Shown: positions 11,851 to 25,759 of the stretch, piece after piece
Layout of the letters: every line of letters starts with the position of its first letter
How positions within the stretch are numbered: position 1 is the stretch's first letter
Source: Actinomyces provencensis
GTDB lineage: Bacteria; Actinomycetota; Actinomycetes; Actinomycetales; Actinomycetaceae
Assembly: GCF_900155435.1 (NCBI RefSeq)
Contig: NZ_LT700212.1
Span: 659,786 to 723,785 of the forward strand
Length of the DNA stretch: 64,000 nt
Reading direction: 5' to 3'
The notes under the pieces: model-generated
Databases searched by the model: none
The model's input: only the letters and a program-made list of their open reading frames with translations
Told to the model about the DNA's origin: nothing
Program-made: the position numbers and the translations under genes

Positions 11851-13584
11851 TCAGTCCTTCTGCCAGGACTCCCACAGGGAGGCGTACTCCCCGCCCGCTG
11901 CGACCAGCTGCTCGTGCGGTCCCAGCTCCACGATGTTGCCGTCCATCATGACCGCCACGCGGTCCGCGTCGTGGGCCGTGTAGAGGCGGTGCGCGATGGC
12001 GACCACCGTGCGTCCCTGGAGGACCTTGGACAACGAGCGCTCCAGGGAACGCGCCGCGGTCGGGTCCATCAGTGACGTCGCCTCGTCCAGGACCAGCGTG
12101 TGCGGGTCCATGAGGACGATGCGGGCCAGCGCCAGCTGCTGGGCCTGGGCGGGGCTCAGGGTCAGGCCACCCGCACCCACCCGCGTGTCCATCCCCTCCC
12201 CCAGGCGGTCCACCCACTCATCGGCCTCGACGGCCGCGAGCGCGGAGTGGACCTGCGCATCGGTGGCGTCCGAGCGGGCCAGGCGCAGGTTGTCGGCGAT
12301 GGTGCCCACGAAGACGTGGTGCTCCTGGGTGACCAGGACGACCTGACCCTGCAGGACGTCCTCCTCCAGGTCGACCAGCTCGACGCCCCCCACGGCCACC
12401 GACCCGGAGGTCGGGGGGTGGATGCCGGCGAGCATGCGCCCGAAGGTGGACTTGCCGGCGCCCGAGGGCCCCACCATGGCCAGGGTCTCCCCGGGACGCA
12501 GGTCCAGGTCGACACCGTGGAGGACGTCCTCCCCGGCCCGGTAGGCGTAGTGGACGTCGTGGGCGCTGATGTGGCGGTCGTGGGGCAGCTCGCCGCTGGC
12601 CTCACGGTCCGGCTCCACCAGGTCGACGCCGAAGATGCGCGACAGGGAGGCCTGGGTGTACTGGATCTGGTCGATCCAGAACGTCGCCTCCCACACGGGT
12701 CCGCGCAGCTGGTAGGCGTACAGCGCGGCAGTGGTGACCTGCCCCAGCGTCACGGCCCCTGCGGGCACGGCCCATGCACCGACCAGGACCATCCCGAGCA
12801 CGGGCATCAGTGAGACGAAGCCCAGGCCCGCGATGAGGAAGACACGCATCCACGCGGCGTAACGCTCCAGGCGCCACACCTCACCCACGGCCGTGTCCAG
12901 GCGCGTGATGCGCTGGGGGACCAGGCGGGCGGCATCCACGGTCTCCGCCTGTTCGATCGTCTCGTTGACGGTGCCGGACAGGCCCGCCCAGGACGCGGCA
13001 CTCGCCCGGTAGGCGGGGATCGTGCGCGGCAGGTACCACTTCATGAGCACCCACACCGCGGGCACCTCCAGCAGGAGCACCAGGGAGAGCAGGGGCGAGG
13101 TCGCCACAGCGGCCACGACGGTGACGACGATGGTGGTGGCCAGGACCAGCATGGAGGAGATCCCCTGGCGCACGGTGAACTGCACGCGATCGATGTCGTG
13201 GGTGGTGCGCCCCACCAGGTCACCGGTCCCCGCACTCTCCACGGTGGACAGCGGCAGGTGGGTGACGGTGCGGACCAGGTCCTCGCGCAGCTGCGCGAAG
13301 ACCTTCTCCCCCAGCACGCGGGCCCGGTACTCGGCGAAGTAGCTGAGCACGGCCCCCACCACCACGGCCCCGATGGCCGCGAGCATCACGGTGCGCACCC
13401 AGTCGAGGCTGGTGCCCTGCTGGATGCGGTCCACCGCGTGCCCCATGGCCCAGGGCAGGGCGATCGCGGCGAGCGCGGACCCCAGTTGGAGGACCAGGAC
13501 GACGGCGATCTCGCTGCGGTGGGCAGCCAGCAGCCCACCCACGCGGTGGCGCACCACGGCGCCGTTGGCGATCGGCAGCTTCAT
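11851..13584 (-). CDS. ABC exporter half-transporter, catalytic Walker-A subunit
   Basis: 577-aa fusion of a six-helix exporter membrane domain (about 1-320) and a nucleotide-binding domain. The NBD has an intact Walker A (GPSGAGKST), Walker B (TLVLDEATSLMD) and switch His (VAIAHRL). Its signature is LSPAQ instead of LSGGQ. It overlaps the upstream partner gene by four bases (ATGA), which marks an obligate heterodimer. The defects of the partner complement it, so the pair should have one working ATP site. The substrate is unknown; drug, peptide or lipid export is typical of the family. Confidence 0.9.
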   Translation of the reverse strand: MKLPIANGAVVRHRVGGLLAAHRSEIAVVLVLQLGSALAAIALPWAMGHAVDRIQQGTSLDWVRTVMLAAIGAVVVGAVLSYFAEYRARVLGEKVFAQLREDLVRTVTHLPLSTVESAGTGDLVGRTTHDIDRVQFTVRQGISSMLVLATTIVVTVVAAVATSPLLSLVLLLEVPAVWVLMKWYLPRTIPAYRASAASWAGLSGTVNETIEQAETVDAARLVPQRITRLDTAVGEVWRLERYAAWMRVFLIAGLGFVSLMPVLGMVLVGAWAVPAGAVTLGQVTTAALYAYQLRGPVWEATFWIDQIQYTQASLSRIFGVDLVEPDREASGELPHDRHISAHDVHYAYRAGEDVLHGVDLDLRPGETLAMVGPSGAGKSTFGRMLAGIHPPTSGSVAVGGVELVDLEEDVLQGQVVLVTQEHHVFVGTIADNLRLARSDATDAQVHSALAAVEADEWVDRLGEGMDTRVGAGGLTLSPAQAQQLALARIVLMDPHTLVLDEATSLMDPTAARSLERSLSKVLQGRTVVAIAHRLYTAHDADRVAVMMDGNIVELGPHEQLVAAGGEYASLWESWQKD

Positions 13585-15650
13585 TCCTGCTCACCTGCTT
13601 CCCTGTTGACCACGGCCCGGTACTCCAGTGCCGGACCATCACCCTGCTCCGCTGCGCGGCGCAGCGAGTCGTGCGTGCCCCGGGTGATCTCCGTCCCCTC
13701 GGGGGAGACGAGGACGACCTCGTCGCAGTGCTCCAGGACCAGCGTCGAGGCGGAGACGACCACGGTCGTGCGTCCCCGACGCTCGCTCGCCAGGCGCTGG
13801 GCGATGCGTGCCTCCGTGTGGGAGTCCACCGCGGAGGTGGGCTCCACGAGCACCAGTACGGGTGCCTCGGAGTGTACGGCGCGTGCCAGTGCCACGCGCT
13901 GGCGCTGGCCCCCGGAGAGGTTGCGTCCCTTCTCCGCCAGTTCCCCGTCGAGTCCCCCCTGCAGGGAGGAGACGACGTCGTGGGCGTCGGCCACGTGCAG
14001 GGCCCGGCGTACCTGCGGGTCGTCCGCGCCGTGCTCGGGCCGGAAGAGGACGCCCTCGCGACGTGTGGAGGCCTCGATGACCTCGCGGTGGATCAGCTCG
14101 GTGACACCGCGGGCACGCCGTGGCTCGGCATCGGGTCCGTCGACCTCCTCGCGCAGCGAGCCCGCGAAGAGCTGGGCCTCCGCCTCGGAGAGGAAGACGG
14201 CGCGACGGACCTCGTCCACGGGTACCTCACGCAGGTCGGTACCGTCGGCGTCGACCTCCAGGGTGGGGTCCTCCGTGTCCTCGACCCGTCCCAGACGCCG
14301 CGCGATGGCCGCCGTCACGTCCGGGTCCTGGCTGACCAGGGCCGTCATGCGGTGGGGGTGGATGGCGACACCGCTGCGGTGGTCGAACAGGGTCGCGTCG
14401 GACCAGTCGACCCCGTCGCCGGGCCGCCCCGTCGGACGGGCCACCGCGCCGCCCTCGTCGCCGGAGGTGTCCACGGGGGTGCCTGCGGAGGCCCCCGGGA
14501 CGTGGGAGTCGTCGACCAGCGGGTCGATCCCGAGGACGCGGGTCATCTTCTTCACGCCCACCCAGGCGCGCGTGTACTGCTGGATCGAGTTCGACGCCAC
14601 GGAGATCGGGTTGCGCAGGAAGGACGTGTACCCGAAGAAGGCGACCAACTGGCCCACCGTGATGCGCCCGTCGAAGGTGAGCAGCGCGCCGTAGCCGACC
14701 ACCAGCGCCGTGAATACCAGGGGCGCGGAGGAGCGCAGCATGGACAGCATCGCGGAGCTCGAGGCCACGCGGATCCCGGCGTCGCGCACCCGCGCGGACT
14801 GGGTGACGTAGTTCGCGTTGTAGACGTCCTCCCCGCCGATGCCACGCAGGACCCGCAGGCCCGCCACCGCGTCGGTGGAGATGGTGGTGAGCTTGCCCTG
14901 TTCCTCGCGCGCCACCGCCTGCTTGGCCTGGAGGGGCTTGATGAGCAGCGTCATCAGGGCGATGACGATCGGCAGCCCGATGAGGACCAGCAGCCCCAGC
15001 GGCACCGAGACGCGCAGCATGATGACCGCGACGACCGCCGTGGAGACGATGGCGGCGACGATCTCGGGGAACCACGCGAACGCGCCCCCGACGTAGTCCG
15101 CGTCGGTCATCAGGACGGTGACGACGTCACCGGCGGGCATCTCCTTCTTCACCGCGCGTCCCGAGCGGGCCACGCGGTGGCCGACATTGCGCGCCGCACC
15201 CATGGCGGAACCCATCCACAGGCCGATCTCGGTCATCTGGTTGATGCCGTTGGTGATCGCCATGAGCGCCACCATCGCGACGAAGACCAGTGAGGGAACC
15301 AGCAGATGCCTCCCGAAGCCGAGGTCGAGGCCGGCATCGAGCAGGCTGCCCATGGCCCAGGGGATCAGGGCGGAGGTCACGTAGTTGACGGTGGTGAGGA
15401 CCACCGCGAGCAGCAGCACCGGCCACACGCCGCGCACCAGTGCCCACAGGAAGGGCCCGTTGGCGGCCGGGAGGGGCGCTGCGGGACCCTGGGGGGCGCG
15501 CCAGGGGCCCCACCAGTGACGGGGGGTGAGCCCGAGGTCGGGCAGGTCGGTCCCGACCTCGTCCGCACGCTGGCGGAGGAAGTCGCGGACCTCGGGATCA
15601 GGGACGGCGGTGGACGCGGACGCGCCGGCGCGTCGACGCAGGAAGGACAT
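13581..15650 (-). CDS. ABC exporter half-transporter with degenerate NBD
   Basis: 689-aa exporter partner. It has a cytosolic N-terminal extension of about 70 residues, six membrane helices, and an NBD enlarged by acidic and Pro-rich inserts. The Walker A loop is gone: the P-loop position reads ALVSQDPDVTAA. Walker B is LVLVEPTSAVD, with Val where Asp is expected, and the switch His region reads VVVSASTL. The signature KGRNLSGGQRQRVALARA is intact. It therefore probably cannot bind ATP in its own P-loop but supplies a good signature to the partner. It is the first gene of the two-gene operon. Confidence 0.9.
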   Translation of the reverse strand: MSFLRRRAGASASTAVPDPEVRDFLRQRADEVGTDLPDLGLTPRHWWGPWRAPQGPAAPLPAANGPFLWALVRGVWPVLLLAVVLTTVNYVTSALIPWAMGSLLDAGLDLGFGRHLLVPSLVFVAMVALMAITNGINQMTEIGLWMGSAMGAARNVGHRVARSGRAVKKEMPAGDVVTVLMTDADYVGGAFAWFPEIVAAIVSTAVVAVIMLRVSVPLGLLVLIGLPIVIALMTLLIKPLQAKQAVAREEQGKLTTISTDAVAGLRVLRGIGGEDVYNANYVTQSARVRDAGIRVASSSAMLSMLRSSAPLVFTALVVGYGALLTFDGRITVGQLVAFFGYTSFLRNPISVASNSIQQYTRAWVGVKKMTRVLGIDPLVDDSHVPGASAGTPVDTSGDEGGAVARPTGRPGDGVDWSDATLFDHRSGVAIHPHRMTALVSQDPDVTAAIARRLGRVEDTEDPTLEVDADGTDLREVPVDEVRRAVFLSEAEAQLFAGSLREEVDGPDAEPRRARGVTELIHREVIEASTRREGVLFRPEHGADDPQVRRALHVADAHDVVSSLQGGLDGELAEKGRNLSGGQRQRVALARAVHSEAPVLVLVEPTSAVDSHTEARIAQRLASERRGRTTVVVSASTLVLEHCDEVVLVSPEGTEITRGTHDSLRRAAEQGDGPALEYRAVVNREAGEQE

Positions 15651-16945: not shown

Positions 16946-17530
16946 CTACGCGTCACCCCCGTGAGCACGCACGTGCTGCGACACGTGCGAGAGTGCGAGG
17001 GCGAGACACAGGGCCCCGACCAGCAGGGTCGCGCCGATCGAGTGCGCTCCCGCCAGGGGGAACTGCCACCAGCTCTCCGGCCCTCCCGCCGCGAGACTGA
17101 TGAAGAGGTGGAGGACGGGCGCAACGGCACCCACCCGGCGCCCGGCGAGGCGGGAGGCGAGGACCCCCAGGGCTCCGAGTCCGACCAGGGTCCTGGCCGT
17201 CTCCAGACCCACGCCCCCGACCAGAGGGATCATCAGGGCGCCTGCCGCGGCCGAGATCGCCGCGATGAGTGCGAACGCCGTGAGGTCGTAGCGCCACATG
17301 CGACGCACGGCCGTCACCTCCTGGTGCGCGGTCGCCCCCATGCGGGTGGCCATCACCTCGACCAGGGGCAGTGGCCCGAGTGCGGCGATCGGCAGGTTCG
17401 CCCCGATGGGAGACAGTCCCGGTACCTGCACGCGCGCGGAGCGGACGACGAGTACCAGGAGGAAGCAACCGGTCAGCAGGACCAGCTGCAGCCACATTCC
17501 TCGGGTGCGCCACCACCACAAATGGGTCAC
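16946..17530 (-). CDS. Membrane protein, last gene of the ABC operon
   Basis: 194-aa polytopic membrane protein with about five hydrophobic segments, including WLQLVLLTGCFLLVLVVRSA, FALIAAISAAAGALMIPLVG and GATLLVGALCLALALS. I do not recognise the family. The chosen start is GTG 17530, whose GTGA overlaps the stop of the preceding permease; an ATG at 17563 is the alternative. Its position after an ABC ATPase and a permease suggests a second membrane subunit or an accessory protein of that transporter. Confidence 0.7.
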   Translation of the reverse strand: MTHLWWWRTRGMWLQLVLLTGCFLLVLVVRSARVQVPGLSPIGANLPIAALGPLPLVEVMATRMGATAHQEVTAVRRMWRYDLTAFALIAAISAAAGALMIPLVGGVGLETARTLVGLGALGVLASRLAGRRVGAVAPVLHLFISLAAGGPESWWQFPLAGAHSIGATLLVGALCLALALSHVSQHVRAHGGDA

Positions 17531-18849
17531 GGCGCGCCGGACACCGTGGCCGAAGCAGAGCATGCCGCCTGCATGCGTGTGATCGCAGTGGCGACCCACG
17601 TGGCCTGCTGGTCGGTCGGGAGGCCAGCCAGGGCGCGGGCAGCGGCCGACACGGTGGGGTCCTCTCCCGTCGGCTCGGTGGGGAGCCCGACTGCGGTCGC
17701 CAGCCAGTCGGCGGCCACGAAGTGGTCCGGCCACGCATCCTGGACCTCGGGGCTGTCGCAGTCCTGGAGCAGACCCTCCCCCACCCAGGTGTTCGCCAGA
17801 CCGGACACGGCCGAGTTGAGGGCGAGGTCCCTGTCCTCCGTCGCCCCGGCGGATGCGACGATCCTCCAGAGGGTCCCGTCACGGGAGGACTCGGAGGCCG
17901 TGTCCGGAACCCGGTAGCCCACCGCAGCGAGCCGGTTCCTGGCGGTCAGAACCGCCTCCTGCATGGCGGGGAGGTCTTGTGCGTGCTCCGGCCACACGCA
18001 CACCCTGACCTCGCTGTCCGTCGAGCACACAGTTGCGCCCGTCCGGGCGACCACCGGGTAGTTCCCGTAGTCCTGGACCATCGCGACAGCAACTCCCAGA
18101 CCCACCCCCGCACACAGCACCCCTGTGACGAGGGCGCCCACCGCCACCACGGTCGGGGCCCGATGCCACAGGGCGATCCGGGACGCGGCGAGGGTGACGG
18201 CCCAAGCTCCCAGACCCACAGCGACCAGGCCCGGAGCCAGCGCCGCTGGCAGGGTGACCTGTGAACCTGCGTCGCAGCACCCGCCCTCGTACCCGTTGAG
18301 GTGTCGCAGCCAGAAGGGCTGGAAGGACTGGGGCATCGCGAACCAGCACCACGTGCCGATCATGACCACCGGCGGTGCGAGTCGGGCCGGAAGGACCAGC
18401 GACAGAGCACCCCCGACCAGGACGGAGGCGGCGACGATGAGCGGTGCCACTGCCAGGATCACGAGGTCGACCCCGGTGGGTCCCCCGACTGCCCGGGGAA
18501 GGACGAGGACCCAGGACAGGGCCAGACCGAGCAGACCACTGACCAACGCCGACACGAGGCTGCGGCCCATGATCGCGGTGGCAGGGCGCGTGGAGGGATG
18601 TCGGAGCACACCTGCCACCCGCAGCGTCGCGATGTCCCATGCGGCGACCGCCGCAGCCAGCGGGCACACCAGCCAGATCGTCGAGTTGGCGGTCTCGGCA
18701 ACCGAGTTCCAGTAGCCCTCAGCGGCGGCGCGCAGCGTCTGGGGCTGGACCAGGACATCCAGGATGACCATGAGGAGGATGAGAGGGCCACCCACCAGGG
18801 CCATGCTCCTGCGCTCCGGCCCCCACCACCTCGCCCTGATCCTGCTCAC
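17527..18849 (-). CDS. ABC permease-like protein with C-terminal extracytoplasmic domain
   Basis: 440-aa membrane protein. It has six or more hydrophobic segments in residues 15-270 (for example GGPLILLMVILDVLV, ALVSGLLGLALSWVLVLP and VVAVGALVTGVLCAGVGLGV). A soluble C-terminal part of about 170 residues has a possible disulfide pair in ATVCSTDSEVRVCVW. It resembles actinobacterial permease-like proteins paired with a lone ABC ATPase. It overlaps the ATPase gene upstream and the small membrane gene downstream by four bases each, so the three form one operon. A role in peptide export or self-protection is inferred from the neighbouring peptide and two-component genes. Confidence 0.75.
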   Translation of the reverse strand: MSRIRARWWGPERRSMALVGGPLILLMVILDVLVQPQTLRAAAEGYWNSVAETANSTIWLVCPLAAAVAAWDIATLRVAGVLRHPSTRPATAIMGRSLVSALVSGLLGLALSWVLVLPRAVGGPTGVDLVILAVAPLIVAASVLVGGALSLVLPARLAPPVVMIGTWCWFAMPQSFQPFWLRHLNGYEGGCCDAGSQVTLPAALAPGLVAVGLGAWAVTLAASRIALWHRAPTVVAVGALVTGVLCAGVGLGVAVAMVQDYGNYPVVARTGATVCSTDSEVRVCVWPEHAQDLPAMQEAVLTARNRLAAVGYRVPDTASESSRDGTLWRIVASAGATEDRDLALNSAVSGLANTWVGEGLLQDCDSPEVQDAWPDHFVAADWLATAVGLPTEPTGEDPTVSAAARALAGLPTDQQATWVATAITRMQAACSASATVSGAP

Positions 18850-19640
18850 GATCCCTCCAGGAGACGCGTGAAGGCCACGTCACCGCGCTCGCCCTGTCCT
18901 CCTGTAGGCGGAGCCAGGTCGACGAACGCCTCCGTACTGCCCTGCCACAGCACCGCGCCCCGGTGCAGCACGACCACATGGTCGAAGGCCCCTCCGATCA
19001 CGTCCGCAGTGACGTGGGTGGACACCACCAGATTGACCTCATCGCGCAGTTCCCGGAAGAGGTCGCGGACCGAGGACCTCTGGAGCGGGTCGAGACCCGC
19101 CGCAGGCTCGTCGAGCAGCAGCCAGTCGGAGCCGTGGATGAGGGCCTGGGCAATCCCGAGTCTGCGCAGTTGCCCACCGGACAGCTCGGACGCCCTGGTC
19201 CCCTCCTGCTCCTGGAGGGACACCCTGCCCAGGGCGCGCGGGGCATCCTCCCACGCCTGCGTCCTGTCCATCCCTGCCAGCCATCCGGCATAGGCCACCG
19301 ACTCACGCGCACTGAACCGCCCGATCGGGCGGATCACCTGCGGCATCCAACCGAGCCGACGTCGGTACGCTGCCATCGTGTGACCGTGGGCACGATCGCC
19401 ACCCACGGACACCACGCCCGACTGTGGTACCAGCAGGGTCGCAGCGACACCCATGAGCGTCGACTTCCCCGCGCCGTTCACGCCGAGCAGCGCCGTGGAC
19501 CCGCACGGGAACCCGACAGACAGATCCGCCAGGACACGGAGCCCGCGGCGTCGGTAGGAGAACGAGACCTTTGACAGCACCAGGTCATCGCCGACGCTGC
19601 GTCCTGTCCCGGCTGCCCCGGTGGTCGGGGCGCTCACCAC
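18846..19640 (-). CDS. ABC transporter ATP-binding protein
   Basis: 264-aa stand-alone ATPase with Walker A GVNGAGKST, signature ELSGGQLRRLGIAQAL, Walker B WLLLDEPAAGLD and switch His in VVSTHVTAD. This is the fold of ATPases of drug or lantibiotic self-protection (type ABC-2) transporters. The start is a GTG at 19640; the next codon is also GTG. It is the first gene of the three-gene ABC operon and lies downstream of the response regulator on the same strand, a layout typical of sensing/detoxification modules. Confidence 0.9.
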   Translation of the reverse strand: MVSAPTTGAAGTGRSVGDDLVLSKVSFSYRRRGLRVLADLSVGFPCGSTALLGVNGAGKSTLMGVAATLLVPQSGVVSVGGDRAHGHTMAAYRRRLGWMPQVIRPIGRFSARESVAYAGWLAGMDRTQAWEDAPRALGRVSLQEQEGTRASELSGGQLRRLGIAQALIHGSDWLLLDEPAAGLDPLQRSSVRDLFRELRDEVNLVVSTHVTADVIGGAFDHVVVLHRGAVLWQGSTEAFVDLAPPTGGQGERGDVAFTRLLEGS

Positions 19641-19712
19641 GTCATCCTCACAGTGCCGACACCCATCTGCTGTGACCCTTCGGAGCCTCTGGTGCCTTCG
19701 TGGATACGAACC

Positions 19713-19817
19713 TCACTCCCCGAGGAGAAGCTGGATGTTTCTCCAGTACAGAGGACCGATCCAACGGCTCACGGCAACGTCCACGCGAGTGCGCAGGTCC
19801 AACACGTGTCTCGACAT
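19713..19817 (-). CDS. Possible 34-residue peptide
   Basis: ATG-initiated frame encoding MSRHVLDLRTRVDVAV followed by a Trp-rich amphipathic end (SRWIGPLYWRNIQLLLGE). It lies in the 263-base gap between the response regulator and the ABC ATPase, on the same strand. There is no clear ribosome site and no signal peptide. Without comparative data I treat it only as a candidate; the gap otherwise holds the presumed promoter of the ABC operon. Confidence 0.2.
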   Translation of the reverse strand: MSRHVLDLRTRVDVAVSRWIGPLYWRNIQLLLGE

Positions 19818-19903
19818 CCACTGACGGAACTGTGACGCGCGCAGTGCCCGCTCTCTGCACGACCCTCATGGGGACGCTCCCACGAGGCTCCCGCCGAGCG
19901 GCG

Positions 19904-20581
19904 TCAACCCGTGTGCCGCACCGGGCCCGCTCCGATGGCCAGCGCCCGGACGGCCACCTCCGCGCGGGACTGGCAGCCGGTGCGCCGGAGGATGTCCGAG
20001 ACGTAGGCTTGGGCGGTCTTCTCGCGCAGGCCCAGGGTCTTCGCGATGGTGCGATTGGACGCCGCGCGGGTGAGCAGACCCAGCACCTCCCGGAGTTGCG
20101 TGGGCAGTGCGTCGATGGCGGCGACGAACTCCGGGTCCTCCTCGCGTTGGATGACCCGTGAACGGTAGGACTCCGCGAGCATGGCCGTGGGGCGAGGACC
20201 CATGACGGTCTCACCGGCCACTGCCGCGTGCAGCAGGCGGGCGAGGCTGGCGATGGGGAGGTCCTTGGTGAGGAACCCGTTCGCCCCTGCCGCCAACGCC
20301 CGATCCAGGAAGTCGTCCTGGGCGAAGGAGGTGAGCATGACGACCGTGACGTCGGGGTGGCGTGCCACGATCCTGCGTGTGGTGTCGATGCCGTCGAGGA
20401 CGGGCATGTCGACGTCGAGCAGCGCGACGTCCACGCAGCGCTCCTCCAGCACACCCAGTGCCGCGGCGCCATCCGGGACGGAGTCGACCAGGTCGATGTC
20501 CTCCCGGCTCCCCAGCAGCGAGGCGAGCGACTCCCGCAGCGCCGGATCGTCATCTGCCAGCAGCAACCTCAGCGGGTCCAT
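19904..20581 (-). CDS. LuxR/NarL-type response regulator
   Basis: 225-aa two-component regulator. The receiver domain has acidic pocket LADDDP, phospho-acceptor Asp in LLDVDMPVLDG and Lys in FLTKDLP. The C-terminal GerE-type helix-turn-helix spans ASNRTIAKTLGLREKTAQAY. ATG 20581 overlaps the end of the kinase gene by 32 bases. It probably controls the ABC operon just downstream and perhaps the peptide gene upstream. The kinase reading frame is broken, so signalling may be lost unless those frameshifts are sequencing errors. Confidence 0.93.
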   Translation of the reverse strand: MDPLRLLLADDDPALRESLASLLGSREDIDLVDSVPDGAAALGVLEERCVDVALLDVDMPVLDGIDTTRRIVARHPDVTVVMLTSFAQDDFLDRALAAGANGFLTKDLPIASLARLLHAAVAGETVMGPRPTAMLAESYRSRVIQREEDPEFVAAIDALPTQLREVLGLLTRAASNRTIAKTLGLREKTAQAYVSDILRRTGCQSRAEVAVRALAIGAGPVRHTG

Positions 20582-21767
20582 GCGCGACGACACCTCCCTC
20601 CGCCTCAGAGGTCTCTCGCCCGGTGGGCTCCTGCACCATCGGACGTCCGGGCAGCTCCACCGTGAGCAGCCACGTGCCACCGGCGCAGCCGTAGCGTGCG
20701 GTCCCACCCTCCCGGGCAGCCCTCTCCGCCAGGGAGACCAGGCCGAAGCCACCGGACAGTGCCCCGTCCGCATCGCATGCTGCCGGGTCGACGTCATTGG
20801 CCATCGCCAGGGAGATCCCACCTCCGGGCAGTGTCTCCACCGTGAGGTTCACCGTCGATCCGGAGGGCGCGTACTTGAGGACGTTGGTGGCCCCCCTTCA
20901 CGCAGGGCGAGGGCGAGGACGGAGCGCTGTCCGGACGTGCACGCGACATCGACGCCATCGGCCACGTCGGCATTCACCGTGATGTGGCGACCCGCGAGCA
21001 TGGTCCGGCACTTCCCGAGGACCTCGGCCAGGGGATCCTGGGGATCGTTGCGCGTGACTCCGGCCTCATCCATGAGCACGCGCAGGTGCCACATGGCCTC
21101 CCGGCGCCGTGTCGCCCAGGGCTTCCAGCTCCGCGGCGGTATCGGGCTCCTGCGTGTGTTGGGCGATGGACTGGCTGGCGACGATGACCCTGACCAGGTC
21201 CGAGGCCACCGTGTCGTGGAGGGTGGCAGCGAGCTTGTGACGCACCGAGGTCTCGGCCTCCGACGCAGCCCGCTGCCTCTGCTCCTCCAACGCCTCGACG
21301 CGCACGTGGTTCCACCGCAACCCGGCGCCCGCAAGGATTGCGAAGCCCACGCCGAGGATCAGGCCGAGGAAGTCACCTGTCGGGGCATCGGACTGGAAGA
21401 TCTCTGCGCCTTCAAGGGCGACGAGCATGATCGCTGCGGCGATGTACCAACGACGGGAGATCCAATCGGCGGCAACCACATAGATGCCGATGAACGGAAC
21501 CGAGACGACGACGATCTCTGGGGGGAGCAAGATGCCTGTGAAGATGATGAGTGCGAAGATCGCCCCACCCACCGCAGGGAACCACCCGACCAAGGCGAGC
21601 GCCACGCAGCTGAGGACTGTCCAGACCCAGTTCCCGACCACGCCCGAGGAGAGTGCGCCGGAGAGAACTTGCAGGACAAGAACGACACCGGCACACACGA
21701 CGATCGCCGTTCGCCGCGCGAGTCCCACGTCTACAGGACGTTGGTGGAACGCATCCGCATGCTTCAT
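20550..21767 (-). pseudogene. Sensor histidine kinase (HisKA_3 type), two compensating frameshifts
   Basis: Reading in three segments restores a NarX/DesK-like kinase. It has about five membrane segments, then a dimerisation helix with phospho-acceptor His in AATLHDTVASDL, then REAMWHLRVLMDEAG, an N-box resembling ALREG.TNVLKYAPSG and the G-box GFGLVSLAERAAREGG. The frame shifts near 21104-21107, where two bases appear missing in a GCGC context. It shifts back at a run of six C (20891-20896). The first and last segments are in the same frame, so the net change is zero, but the gene as written stops at 21066. The cause is mutation, phase variation or sequencing error. Confidence 0.85.
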
Positions 21768-21768
21768 C

Positions 21769-21969
21769 TCACTTGCATCCCGGCCAAGAGGGGAAGGCCT
21801 TGCAGTACCAAGGCTCTCCGGAGGCCACTTCGACTGCTACAGCTCCCGAAGTCGCCAGACCGGATCTGTCGGAAGAAGCAAGTGAGTCCGCATGTGCAAC
21901 CAGAGGAGCCGAGACGCAGAGAACCATGACCAGCGAGTACACCAATGACGACTGCCATCCAACCCGCAT
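21769..21969 (-). CDS. Small secreted cysteine peptide upstream of the sensor kinase
   Basis: 66-aa precursor. The signal peptide MRVGWQSSLVYSLVMVLCVS continues to an AHA cleavage motif at residues 25-27, giving a mature chain of about 39 residues. The chain ends GEPWYCKAFPSWPGCK, with two Cys separated by eight residues that could close a disulfide loop rich in aromatic residues and Pro. The stop lies one base before the ATG of the sensor kinase, so they are co-translated. An alternative ATG is at 22002. I do not recognise the family. A role as extracellular signal, bacteriocin or kinase co-sensor is inferred from position. Confidence 0.65.
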   Translation of the reverse strand: MRVGWQSSLVYSLVMVLCVSAPLVAHADSLASSDRSGLATSGAVAVEVASGEPWYCKAFPSWPGCK

Positions 21970-22243: not shown

Positions 22244-22327
22244 ATGAACACGAAGAGGACACTTGCCACACTCGCAACCGTTGGAGTGTTGGCACTCCGG
22301 AACCTGTCAACCTGGGTGGGTCAGTGA
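22244..22327 (+). pseudogene. Signal-peptide start of a secreted protein, cut by an IS remnant
   Basis: ATG 22244 has GAGAGGG ten bases upstream and encodes MNTKRTLATLATVGVLAL, a typical Sec signal peptide core. The frame then runs into insertion-sequence end DNA (RNLSTWVGQ, stop). The natural downstream part is not found beyond the IS remnant. It is divergent from the small cysteine peptide gene, 274 bases away, and may have been a second exported peptide of the same locus. Confidence 0.55.
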
Positions 22328-22461: not shown

Positions 22462-22855
22462 CAGCCTGCCCCGCCCCAGCGGGCGCCGTCATCGTCGTAC
22501 TCATCCTGGGGAACTCCTCCCCGCCCTCTACGACACCGATCCGGACTGTCCGGGTGTCTTACTCAAGGTTGGCACAGAGGGCCCCCGTCCCCGACCTGCC
22601 CCCCACAGACACACACCCACACAAGCAAGCATCCAGAAGCCAGTGCCCACCAGCTGCGCCTGCCGCCCAGACGCGAACACACGGACGCAGCCCACACCAC
22701 ACCTCACGGGTGCGGCGACGGCGCCGGGCTATCATGGTCCGGACAAGACAACATCGGTAGAGCGTGTGTGTCCCAGGCAGGGTGCGCAGCGTGATGTACC
22801 ACCGGGCCTTTCCGGTGGGGTGGATGCGCGGTAGGCGCGGGAATTGGAGCACACC
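22462..22855 (+). promoter_or_regulatory. 394-base gap: decayed DNA, then promoter and 5' leader of the next operon
   Basis: The left two thirds hold no convincing gene and look like decayed or CA-rich DNA. A TATCAT box (22730-22735) is a plausible -10 element, which gives a leader of about 114 bases. In it CCACCGG (22799-22805) pairs with CCGGTGG (22812-22818) around a six-base loop. An unusually long leader on the first gene of the operon, where other genes here are leaderless, suggests post-transcriptional control. Confidence 0.4.
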
Positions 22856-25759
22856 ATGGCAGATGACAGGGATTCTCGGGGCGGGCACGGGGACTCGGGT
22901 TCAGGTCATCAGTGGCGGGAGTCGGGGGACAGGTCCTGGCGGGGACGTGACTCCGGCTCCCAGGGGCGTGATCGTGGAGGCGAGCGAGGTTCGCACGGTG
23001 GCCGCGACGACCGCCGTGGGAGTGAGCGTGGCTCGTACGGCAAGCGCGACGACACCCGCGGTGGGCATCGCTCCCACGCGGACCGTGACGACCGCCGGGG
23101 CGGGTACAGCAAGGACGACCGTGGTGAGCGTCGTTCCTACGGTGATCGGGATGACCGGCGCGGTGGTTACCGCAGGGACGACCGTGGCGAGCGCGGTTCC
23201 TATGGGGACCGTGACGACAATCGTGGTGAGCGTCGTTCCTACGGCGACCGTGACGACCGGCGCGGTGGGTACCGCAGGGACGACCGTGGTGAACGGCGCT
23301 CCTACGGGGACCGTGACGACCGTCGCTCCTACGGCAAGCGTGACGACAACCGTGGTGAGCGTCGTTCCTACGGGGACCGTGACGACCGCCGGGGCGGGTA
23401 CAGCAGGGACGACCGTGGTGAGCGTCGTTCCTACGGGGACCGTGACGACCGCCGCTCCTACGGCAAGCGTGACGACAACCGTGGTGAGCGTCGTTCCTAC
23501 GGGGATCGCGATGGCCGTCGCGGCGGCGAGCGGGGTTCCTACGGCAAGCGTGACGACAACCGCGGTGAGCGCCGTTCCTACGGGGACCGCGACGACCGTC
23601 GCGGCGGGTACCGCAGGGACGACCGTGGTGATCGGCGTTCCTCCGGCAACCGTGAGGACCGCCGGGGAGGACCCCGGCGGGACGAGCGCGGGGGCCAGCG
23701 GGGAGGGGCACGCCGGGACGACCGTCAGGAGCGGTACTCCAGCACGGATGAGTACGTGTCCCCGAATGCGGACGAGCCGACGATTCCTGCCGGCGTGTCG
23801 GCGGATGAACTCGACAAGGACGTCCTGCGTGCGCTCAACACCCTCTCCGGCCCGAACAGGGACATCGTCGCACGTCACCTCGTCATGGCCGGCCAGCTCA
23901 TCGATCTCGACCCTGAGCGTGCCTACCAGCATGCCCAGGCTGCGTCCAACCGCGCAGGTCGCGTCGACATGGTGCGGGAGGCTGCCGCGCTGACGGCCTA
24001 CGCCTCCGGACGGTACGAGGAGGCGCTGCGTGAGGTCCGGGCTGTGCGGCGGATGCGGGGGGACGACTCCCTGCGCGCCGTTGAGGCGGACTCGGAGCGC
24101 GGCCTCGGTCGCCCGGAGAAGGCCGTGGAGATCATCGACGCCACTGACACCAAGGGCATGGATCTGGCCGACCAGGTGGAGTTGGTCCTCGTCTCCTCCG
24201 GCGCACGCGCGGACCTCGGGCAGAACGAGGTCGGCCTCGTCCTCGTCGACGACGCACTGGCCGCGCTGCCGGAGGACGTGGACCCGGAGCTCGTCAGGCG
24301 CCTCATGAGCGTGAAGGCCGACCGCCTGCGCGAGCTGGGTCGGGACGACGAGGCAGACGAGGTCGTGGCGTCCATGCCCGAGGAGGTCGAGGACCCCGAG
24401 ATCCTCGATGTCGAACTGATCGCGGACGCCGATGTCGACCGCAGGCCCACACCCCTGCGCGGTACGGACGCGCCGCTGGACCAGACCTTCGACGGGGTCC
24501 TCATGGACCTCGACGGTGTCGCCTACCACGGGGCGGACCCCGTGGAGCATGCCGCTGACTCGGTCGTCGCTGCGCGCGCGGCCGGGATGAGGACCGCATT
24601 CCTGACCAACAATGCCTCCCGCTCGCCGCGCAGTGTGGCGGAGCAGCTCAACGAGCTCGGGTTCCAGGTCGATCCGGGGATGATCATGACCTCCGCGATG
24701 GACGTCGTCGCCTACATGAAGGAGAACATCGAGGACGGGGCCCCGGTCCTGGTGGTGGGCGGCGAAGGGCTGCGCGACGCGGTCACCGCGGGCGGCTACA
24801 CCGTCGTCGACTCCGCGGAGGAGTCCCCGGCGGCCGTGGTCCAGGGGTTCGACCCCGGCGTCGGTTGGGCCCAGCTGAGCGAGGCCGTGTACGCGATCCA
24901 CGCGGGAGCGATGTTCTTCGCGACGAACCTGGACGCGACCCTGCCGACGGAACGTGGGTTCGCTCTCGGGAACGGCTCCCTCGTGCGCGCCGTGCAGAAC
25001 GCGACCGACCGTCGTCCCATCGCCGCCGGCAAGCCGGAACCGGGTATCTACACCCGTGCTGCGGCGCTCGTGGGGGCGACGAACCCGGTCGCCGTCGGCG
25101 ACCGGCTCGAGACGGACGTGGCCGGGGCGGTCATCGCAGGCATGCCCGCCATGCACGTGCTCACCGGCGTCCACCAGGCGCGGGACGTGATCACCGCCCG
25201 TCGCGGTCAACGCCCGGCCTTCCTCGCCCGCGACCTGCGTGGCCTCGTCGAGGAGCACCCGCGGCCGAAGCACCACCTGGACAACTCCTGGACCTGCGGG
25301 GTCTCCCAGGTGGCCCGGGTCCTGCGCAGCGGGACGCTGAGCCTCGACGATGTCGAGCTCTCGGGTCCCACCACCGTCACCCTGGACTCCTACCGGGCGC
25401 TGGCCGCCGCCGCGTGGGACGCAGCCGACGAAGGAACCCAGGTCGCCTGCCCGGAGATCGCCGTTGTCGACAATGACGATCCCGCGGGGATCGTCGAGGC
25501 TCCTGACCCCGGACCTGTCGAGGAATCGACTGACGTGCCGGACACCGGGGCGGCGGAGGGAGGCTCGGCGTTCACCGATGCGGACCTGGCGCTCGGCGCG
25601 GATGCCGAGGAGCTCGCCGATGCCGAGGACACGCCCGCATTCCTGCCGGGTGAGGAGGAGTTGGAGGCTCTCCTCGCCGACACGGACGGGGAAGCGACTA
25701 CCGATGCCTCAGGATCCGAGGAAGTGGCCGGGCCGGGTGAGGACGGGGAGGAACGGTGA
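22856..25759 (+). CDS. Fusion protein: RG/RDD-rich repeat domain, TPR-like region, HAD-IIA phosphatase
   Basis: 967-aa protein. Residues 1-295 are a low-complexity domain built from repeats such as RSYGDRDDRRGGY and RRDDRGE, disordered and Arg/Gly/Asp-rich like RGG RNA-binding tails. Residues 300-540 form an alpha-helical TPR-like region (AAALTAYASGRYEEALREVR). Residues 545-770 are a NagD-like HAD domain with MDLDGVAYHG, LTNNASRS, AGKPEPGIYTRA and VGDRLETDVAGA. An acidic tail ends the protein. In mycobacteria the TPR and HAD proteins are separate neighbouring genes before tlyA. ATG 22856 has a GGAG site. The next gene overlaps (GTGA). Confidence 0.88.
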   Translation: MADDRDSRGGHGDSGSGHQWRESGDRSWRGRDSGSQGRDRGGERGSHGGRDDRRGSERGSYGKRDDTRGGHRSHADRDDRRGGYSKDDRGERRSYGDRDDRRGGYRRDDRGERGSYGDRDDNRGERRSYGDRDDRRGGYRRDDRGERRSYGDRDDRRSYGKRDDNRGERRSYGDRDDRRGGYSRDDRGERRSYGDRDDRRSYGKRDDNRGERRSYGDRDGRRGGERGSYGKRDDNRGERRSYGDRDDRRGGYRRDDRGDRRSSGNREDRRGGPRRDERGGQRGGARRDDRQERYSSTDEYVSPNADEPTIPAGVSADELDKDVLRALNTLSGPNRDIVARHLVMAGQLIDLDPERAYQHAQAASNRAGRVDMVREAAALTAYASGRYEEALREVRAVRRMRGDDSLRAVEADSERGLGRPEKAVEIIDATDTKGMDLADQVELVLVSSGARADLGQNEVGLVLVDDALAALPEDVDPELVRRLMSVKADRLRELGRDDEADEVVASMPEEVEDPEILDVELIADADVDRRPTPLRGTDAPLDQTFDGVLMDLDGVAYHGADPVEHAADSVVAARAAGMRTAFLTNNASRSPRSVAEQLNELGFQVDPGMIMTSAMDVVAYMKENIEDGAPVLVVGGEGLRDAVTAGGYTVVDSAEESPAAVVQGFDPGVGWAQLSEAVYAIHAGAMFFATNLDATLPTERGFALGNGSLVRAVQNATDRRPIAAGKPEPGIYTRAAALVGATNPVAVGDRLETDVAGAVIAGMPAMHVLTGVHQARDVITARRGQRPAFLARDLRGLVEEHPRPKHHLDNSWTCGVSQVARVLRSGTLSLDDVELSGPTTVTLDSYRALAAAAWDAADEGTQVACPEIAVVDNDDPAGIVEAPDPGPVEESTDVPDTGAAEGGSAFTDADLALGADAEELADAEDTPAFLPGEEELEALLADTDGEATTDASGSEEVAGPGEDGEER
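22930..23740 (+). repeat. In-gene degenerate tandem repeats encoding the RG-rich domain
   Basis: Units of 39-48 bases repeat throughout the 5' third of the fusion gene. A block of about 53 bases at 23324 recurs exactly at 23453, a 129-base step (43 codons). Such repeats can expand or contract in frame by slippage or recombination. Confidence 0.8.

Follow-up and report, generated by a model that had tools for sequence, protein, structure and literature searches.

Within a stretch of 64,000 nucleotides of the 3.35-Mb genome of Actinomyces provencensis (G000:C1:659786-723785; hereafter the window), a gene for a small, secreted-looking peptide that ends in two cysteines is followed, in the same direction, by the genes of a sensor kinase and of a LuxR-type response regulator. 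Comparisons among relatives indicate that this module is, with good probability, a peptide-pheromone/receptor-kinase two-component system of a family undescribed so far. The arrangement of the genes and the spacing of eight residues between the cysteines are conserved; the peptide co-varies with the sensor domain of the kinase, and at a locus shared by several genomes the two form one variable block. The original prediction, made from the letters of the window alone, had proposed a secreted Cys-X8-Cys peptide sensed by the adjacent kinase and handled by an ABC system. The peptide is real: its open frame of 66 residues has a signal-like start, and the same arrangement recurs in dozens of genomes, with spacing 8 preferred. 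The sensing gains support from the conserved pairing and from the way in which the mature peptide co-varies with the sensor domain. The part given to the ABC system was not borne out (see the last but one section).

Cysteine peptides before HisKA_3 kinases

Profiles of the peptide were built stepwise from 4, then 10, then 22 cores and were run over 35 genomes of the genus, 213 of the window's family (probably Actinomycetaceae, to judge from its named members), 396 of the order, and 296 of the class. The thresholds were lax and most weak matches are due to chance; membership required a kinase frame behind the peptide, recognized by script or by reading. Besides an identical copy, the search with the window precursor gave three weak matches with the same end motif in the window genome and in Actinomyces polynesiensis, each directly before a kinase. 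The window genome has four copies of the precursor-kinase module (C1: 681557, 2157161, 3021188, and 3185510). In the window's family, the open reading frames (ORFs) directly upstream of related HisKA_3 kinases share the core PWxCxxFPxLPxC. Among 43 loci with spacing 8, the first cysteine is preceded by Pro at -3 (23 loci), Trp at -2 (14), and Ile or Leu at -1 (26), and followed by Leu, Phe, or Val at +2 (33), Phe or Leu at +3 (33), and Pro at +4 (40); toward the second cysteine, at +9, come Leu at +6 (24) and Pro at +7 (27). The precursor stops overlap the kinase start or fall within tens of bases of it. On reading, the leaders resemble signal peptides and in several precursors the hydrophobic start has an AxA-like end; in L137 a GG stands a short way ahead of the loop. 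The precursors tested have no sequence match in Pfam, NCBIfam, or the PDB, in agreement with the original prediction that the end of the window precursor belongs to no known family.

Outside the family the peptide is rare. The core was matched (E <= 0.01) in 10 of the 396 order genomes, seven of them outside the family, and only one of these seven (G414) has a kinase behind it; in the class it was matched in 3 of 296 genomes, two of them outside the family, one with a kinase behind it (G814). No C-X8-C ORF was judged convincing at four kinases from outside the family (L226, L228, L230, and L231), one of which (L228) has a similar ORF with a cysteine spacing of 9. The viral collection yielded a single relative of the kinases (L239, IMGVR_UViG_2919380674_000001), which carries, on reading, a C-X8-C ORF (...LLCTLLPKLPGCKKN); its contig is possibly a prophage or a chromosomal edge. 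At one place (L117:7263-10000, and the same place in L082), a single peptide gene is followed by two tandem kinase genes.

The association was also examined starting from the kinase. A profile built from the sensor regions of 12 kinases, all of peptide-bearing loci, matched about 140 places in 81 of the 213 family genomes (E <= 1e-6). Most of the stronger and some of the weaker places were taken, giving 100 distinct frames, 99 of which had at least 300 bases upstream. Under a wide rule (ORF within -170 to +25, a hydrophobic run of 9, and two terminal cysteines at spacings 6, 7, 8, or 10), a signal-like ORF was found at 62 of these 99 kinases, and at 1, 1, 4, 2, 2, and 1 of 95-98 when the anchor was shifted in six ways. 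The criteria were chosen post hoc, with the data already seen; the shifted controls were run under identical criteria. When the hydrophobic run was dropped, the count was 63 of 99, versus 3-5 at shifted anchors. At most 22 of the 62 positives had contributed to the peptide profiles, the other 40 peptides had not; 12 kinases of the test set had gone into the kinase profile. The spectrum of cysteine spacings is sharp: 47 ORFs have spacing 8, 11 have spacing 6, three each have 7 and 10, none has 9, and other spacings occur 0-3 times each.

A narrower rule, restricted to C-X8-C, found the peptide at 25 of the 27 kinases matched with E < 1e-40, and at 8, 8, and 5 of 24 in the three weaker bins; with spacings 6, 8, and 10 allowed, the counts in the same four bins were 25, 12, 12, and 8. 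Shifted anchors gave C-X8-C in 0-2 of 96-99 cases and the opposite strand in 2 of 99 (6 of 99 for the three spacings); random anchors gave 1.9% and 4.0%, some of them falling on true peptides. Hence, a chance ORF was rejected as an explanation, since shifted anchors, the opposite strand, and other spacings yield background only. Six kinase sensor regions, used as queries against named GTDB genomes, found seven loci, all with a peptide ORF: two in A. polynesiensis, one in A. minihominis, two in the metagenome-assembled genome Actinomyces sp. UW_MP_ACT2_2, and one each in two further metagenome-assembled genomes. Six of these places were already in the peptide profiles, and A. minihominis was new to them. 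The original prediction had staked itself on relatives carrying the small ORF in a conserved frame, and had suggested a search for Cys-X8-Cys endings upstream of related HisKA_3 kinases; many related kinases do carry such ORFs, and the condition named for its refutation proved false.

Peptide and sensor domain vary together

Two otherwise near-identical modules (G100 and G103) differ by an exchange of peptide and sensor. Over the promoter and the beginning of the precursor gene, from -195 to about +34 relative to its start, the DNA identity is 92-98%. It falls to 51-77% across the mature peptide and the sensor domain and rises again to 93-100% in the catalytic part and regulator, the last piece standing at 87%. 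The same pattern is found in the genus g17. Among its eight precursors, the signal-like start has a mean identity of 79% over 28 residues and the mature part one of 45%. At a locus shared by seven of its genomes (seven loci, compared in seven pairs), upstream DNA is mostly 90-98% identical in five pairs (unrelated in L198/L204 and L203/L204), and the catalytic part with the downstream DNA is mostly 80-98% identical. The block in between, of about 600-1000 bases, is variable; it comprises the mature peptide and the kinase sensor, with identities mostly of 45-70% between types and of 70-87% within a type. The similarity of the peptides follows that of the sensors (n = 7; Spearman 0.73, a value reached by 25 of 5040 permutations) and not that of the catalytic parts (0.04; 2036 of 5040). 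Including L205, whose catalytic part is broken, the values are 0.75 (255 of 40320; n = 8) and 0.06. Where the peptide cores are identical (L139/L140 and L184/L185), the sensors are 99% and 93% identical, versus 90% in both pairs for the catalytic part. Over 43 loci, the partial correlation of peptide and sensor given the catalytic part is 0.234, a value reached in 0 of 999 permutations.

Several observations weigh against a pheromone system. Over the same 43 loci, the partial correlation of peptide and catalytic part given the sensor is also positive (0.164; 14 of 999). In the pair L201/L129, the peptide core is 93% identical, yet the sensor (67%) is less similar than the catalytic part (79%). 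In L200/L212, no peptide was found, yet the sensors are 61% identical and the catalytic parts 93%; a fast-diverging sensor alone is thus no proof, because these and other kinases without a found peptide diverge fast as well. In the small group of peptides with spacing 6, pairs with L178 show no contrast between sensor and catalytic part, although L171/L172 do. The DNA of G100 and G103 beyond the module is unrelated (36-52%). Under the wide rule, 37 of the 99 related kinases lack the ORF. Finally, the window kinase itself is interrupted: it ends in the frame in which it starts, but some 80 codons in between (about 20880-21120) are shifted out of that frame, and a stop follows at 21066. Two observations belong beside these. 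Three open kinases (L143, L182, and L183) are preceded, on reading, by what appear to be decayed remnants of peptide genes. The kinases classed as having no peptide were dropped as a negative control, as eight of them in g17 (six in the compared pairs) carry an ORF further upstream.

The interruption of the window kinase may be real decay or a pair of sequencing errors, and with it the copy of this strain may be silent. The original prediction had placed the kinase one base downstream of the peptide gene, and so it lies, with a single base between the precursor stop and the kinase start at 21767; the kinase gene is not a single open frame. In A. polynesiensis MS2 (G017), the precursor is identical to that of the window, and the kinase, on an adjoining contig (L164), is open over 404 codons, with a HisKA_3 match at E 0.00018 and 22.4 bits against a cut-off of 24. 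Its regulator is 99.6% identical to the window regulator, and both have a GerE domain. All six open kinases tested matched HisKA_3 at E <= 0.01; three of these matches pass the Pfam cut-off and three narrowly miss it. The six gave no match to any other Pfam family, HATPase families included.

The pheromone system would work as follows. The precursor, of about 50-80 residues (starts being uncertain), would be exported by means of its N-terminal signal peptide and then trimmed. The C-terminal part thus released, of about 12-25 residues, would be closed by a disulphide between the two cysteines, usually eight apart; VKOR, a disulphide-forming enzyme, is present in the window genome. The loop would be bound by the membrane domain of the neighboring kinase. 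An AlphaFold model of the L081 kinase, from eight sequences (mean predicted local distance difference test score 78, predicted template modeling score 0.41), has six helices in its membrane part, the last continuing into the dimerization helix, and no outside domain; the count of six rests on the model, because a hydropathy scan gives only 3-4 strong segments. Foldseek matched the cytoplasmic parts of kinases, DesK being prominent, with target-normalized TM-scores of about 0.5, and returned nothing informative for the membrane part among the 50 matches listed. The kinase would phosphorylate the LuxR-type regulator, which would turn on other genes along with the module itself (autoinduction). 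Between species, peptide and sensor domain would change together, giving rise to pherotypes.

One may ask whether the small protein is released at all. It could stay anchored by its N-terminal helix and expose its cysteine loop, which would serve the kinase as a co-sensor or would damp it, in the way of MgrB and PhoQ. The single hydrophobic segment, the short outside part, and the position of the gene tightly before the kinase suit this idea, and direct contact would likewise produce co-variation. However, several types of peptide and sensor at one locus fit type-specific signals, with no obvious house-keeping cause; the exchange of both between the near-identical modules of G100 and G103 and the AxA-like ends of the hydrophobic start also argue for a released signal. 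We regard an anchored co-sensor as unlikely. A second idea of the original prediction, that the peptide is an antimicrobial which its producer senses by the kinase and resists by the ABC genes, would account for the ABC genes and small secreted proteins beside several modules. It sits badly with the modules that lack such neighbors and lie amid house-keeping genes (L117, L119, L120, and L125, on reading), with the lack of conservation of the window ABC and membrane genes alongside the module, and with a loop that is short and variable, and we hold it to be quite improbable. Least of all would one expect the ORF to be no more than a leader whose translation couples or attenuates the expression of the kinase. 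Stops that overlap the kinase start or sit within tens of bases of it would be in place for such a role; yet the signal-like start, the cysteine spacing of 8, and Pro at +4 are features of a protein, kept in diverged sequences, and the ORF co-varies with the sensor domain, which makes a mere leader most implausible.

The window locus and its exchangeable neighbors

The features of the locus are given in Table 1. After its hydrophobic segment, the window precursor continues as ...GEPWYCKAFPSWPGCK. As the original prediction had it, the LuxR-type regulator, the ABC ATPase, and the two membrane proteins lie in the same direction, with matching domains; the outside domain of 170 residues that it gave to one membrane protein corresponds to about 180 residues after seven predicted segments, partly matching DUF7224.

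Table 1. Coordinates within the window of the signaling module and of the genes around it
Feature	Position	Strand	Basis
Putative pheromone precursor, 66 aa	21769..21969 (stop codon 21769-21771)	-	Open frame
Signal-peptide-like N-terminus, about residues 1-28	21886..21969	-	Hydrophobic segment residues 9-27; presumed cleavage site
Cys-X8-Cys loop CKAFPSWPGC, presumed disulphide loop of mature peptide	21775..21804	-	Family core PWxCxxFPxLPxC; putative disulphide
Sensor kinase gene, interrupted	20553..21767	-	HisKA_3 E 0.021, below cut-off, first piece
Response regulator, receiver and LuxR-type (GerE) DNA-binding domain	19904..20581	-	Response_reg E 2e-25, GerE E 2e-7
ABC ATPase, exchangeable neighbor	18846..19640	-	ABC_tran E 5e-23
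Membrane protein with C-terminal DUF7224, exchangeable neighbor	17527..18849	-	Residues 283-427, E 3e-13
Second membrane protein, no family	16946..17734	-	Four predicted segments; gene probably starts downstream of 17734
Divergent gene, apparently truncated: start MNTKRTLATLATVGVLAL resembling a signal peptide, with a short unrelated end	22244..22327	+	Reading

The ABC and membrane genes of the window do not accompany the module elsewhere. In A. polynesiensis, the DNA is 97-99% identical to that of the window from about 22198 to about 19716, and identity ends beyond; the gene after the regulator (L164:1-1250) codes for a different ABC ATPase, 37% identical to that of the window. Between these two close relatives, sequence comparison thus indicates an exchange of neighboring genes behind a constant signaling module. 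A tblastn survey of 32 loci, some places being represented twice, found the regulator at 29; at the remaining three, the contig breaks off inside the kinase gene or next to it. For the DUF7224 protein, L178 alone yielded a relative, and a weak one (36% over 80 residues); the second membrane protein had none at any of the 32 loci, and ABC ATPases, of various kinds, were found at about half. Judging from these loci, the recurring unit is precursor-kinase-regulator and the window ABC genes are exchangeable neighbors. The ABC genes were rejected as a core part on these grounds, relatives of the membrane proteins being nearly absent and the ATPases of mixed kinds.

Small secreted-looking proteins flank several modules. 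They resemble I36 inhibitors in L130 and L132, have a peptidoglycan-binding part in L131, and belong to no family in L115, L118, L121, L123, and L128. In two loci (L130:10505-11945 and L132:10343-14001), the gene of the I36-inhibitor-like protein diverges from the module together with ABC export genes and the gene of a protein resembling lipoproteins; these cassettes are possible bacteriocin clusters. The modules may control such secreted cargo nearby. In the window, the divergent gene for a small secreted protein appears to be damaged differently than in A. polynesiensis. At the corresponding place of the latter (L012, 431-1100) lie the end of another small ORF and then ABC and FtsX-like genes; the start in the window and the end in A. 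polynesiensis are presumably parts of one gene. Elsewhere in the window, an ABC exporter protein (13581-15650) reads LVLVEPTS in its Walker B region, where a DEPTS-type motif is usual, and a long ORF (22844-25759) has, on reading, a repeat start rich in Arg, Asp, Gly, and Tyr fused to a HAD-like hydrolase part.

Likeness to known signaling systems

In the wide sense of a receptor-kinase pheromone system, a peptide gene is here linked to a kinase and a regulator and co-varies with the sensor domain. The agr system (AgrBDCA) of staphylococci and other Firmicutes likewise unites a peptide precursor, its receptor kinase, and a regulator at a single locus. Its kinase is of the HPK10 type, without HisKA_3, and its regulator binds DNA by a LytTR domain, whereas the present modules have a HisKA_3 kinase and a GerE regulator; where agr has a thiolactone made by AgrB, the precursors here show, by sequence, a signal-like leader and two conserved cysteines. 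AgrB (PF04647) had no match in the window genome, in a search of low power whose control matched 1 of 14 genomes, none over the cut-off. Membership in agr was rejected, as three of its features (AgrB, in that low-power search, the HPK10-type kinase, and the LytTR regulator) were not found. The likeness extends to the pattern of variation: a hypervariable region lies within the peptide and receptor genes of agr, according to the passages of PMC12312760 on that region, and a region spanning peptide and receptor sensor was found here in G100/G103 and at the g17 locus. For defective isolates, the same source describes frameshifts and further changes, chiefly in agrC, a parallel to the interrupted window kinase. 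In conclusion, the modules bear an agr-like pherotype signature built from non-agr parts.

The ComCDE, Blp, and Pln systems also have a small exported peptide gene beside a receptor kinase and a regulator, and pherotypes. Their peptides (ComC, BlpC, and PlnA) have double-glycine leaders exported by ABC transporters with a C39 peptidase, and their kinases and regulators are of the HPK10 and LytTR types; the present systems differ in HisKA_3 and GerE and, it seems, in their leaders, which look signal-like on reading. DesK-DesR resembles them in the catalytic part, as seen with Foldseek, and in a membrane sensor without outside domain; DesK senses the state of the membrane and has no peptide gene. 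MgrB shares with the small proteins a membrane segment and outside cysteines, and acts on the kinase PhoQ, but to our knowledge regulators of this type are neither encoded directly before the kinase nor found as allelic types.

In the open-licence literature we found no description of the present peptide-kinase family and no peptide pheromone for Actinomyces and its relatives, a group common on teeth and mucosa. The joint variation of peptide and sensor resembles that of signal and receptor and suggests that these bacteria have a chemical language not described before. We lean, with somewhat less assurance than for the pheromone system as such, toward the wider view that pherotype quorum sensing was invented independently in Actinomycetota, with Sec-exported, disulphide-looped peptides, six-helix HisKA_3 kinases, four copies in the window genome, peptide and sensor varying between species as one cassette, and some loci coupled to small secreted (bacteriocin-like) proteins and exporters. 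If true, the evolutionary pattern of agr would have a second, unrelated instance. About 60 concrete pairs of peptide and receptor are available, and the natural set of types at the g17 locus predicts which peptide would address which receptor, so that cell-to-cell signaling in the relatives of Actinomyces becomes directly testable with short synthetic peptides.

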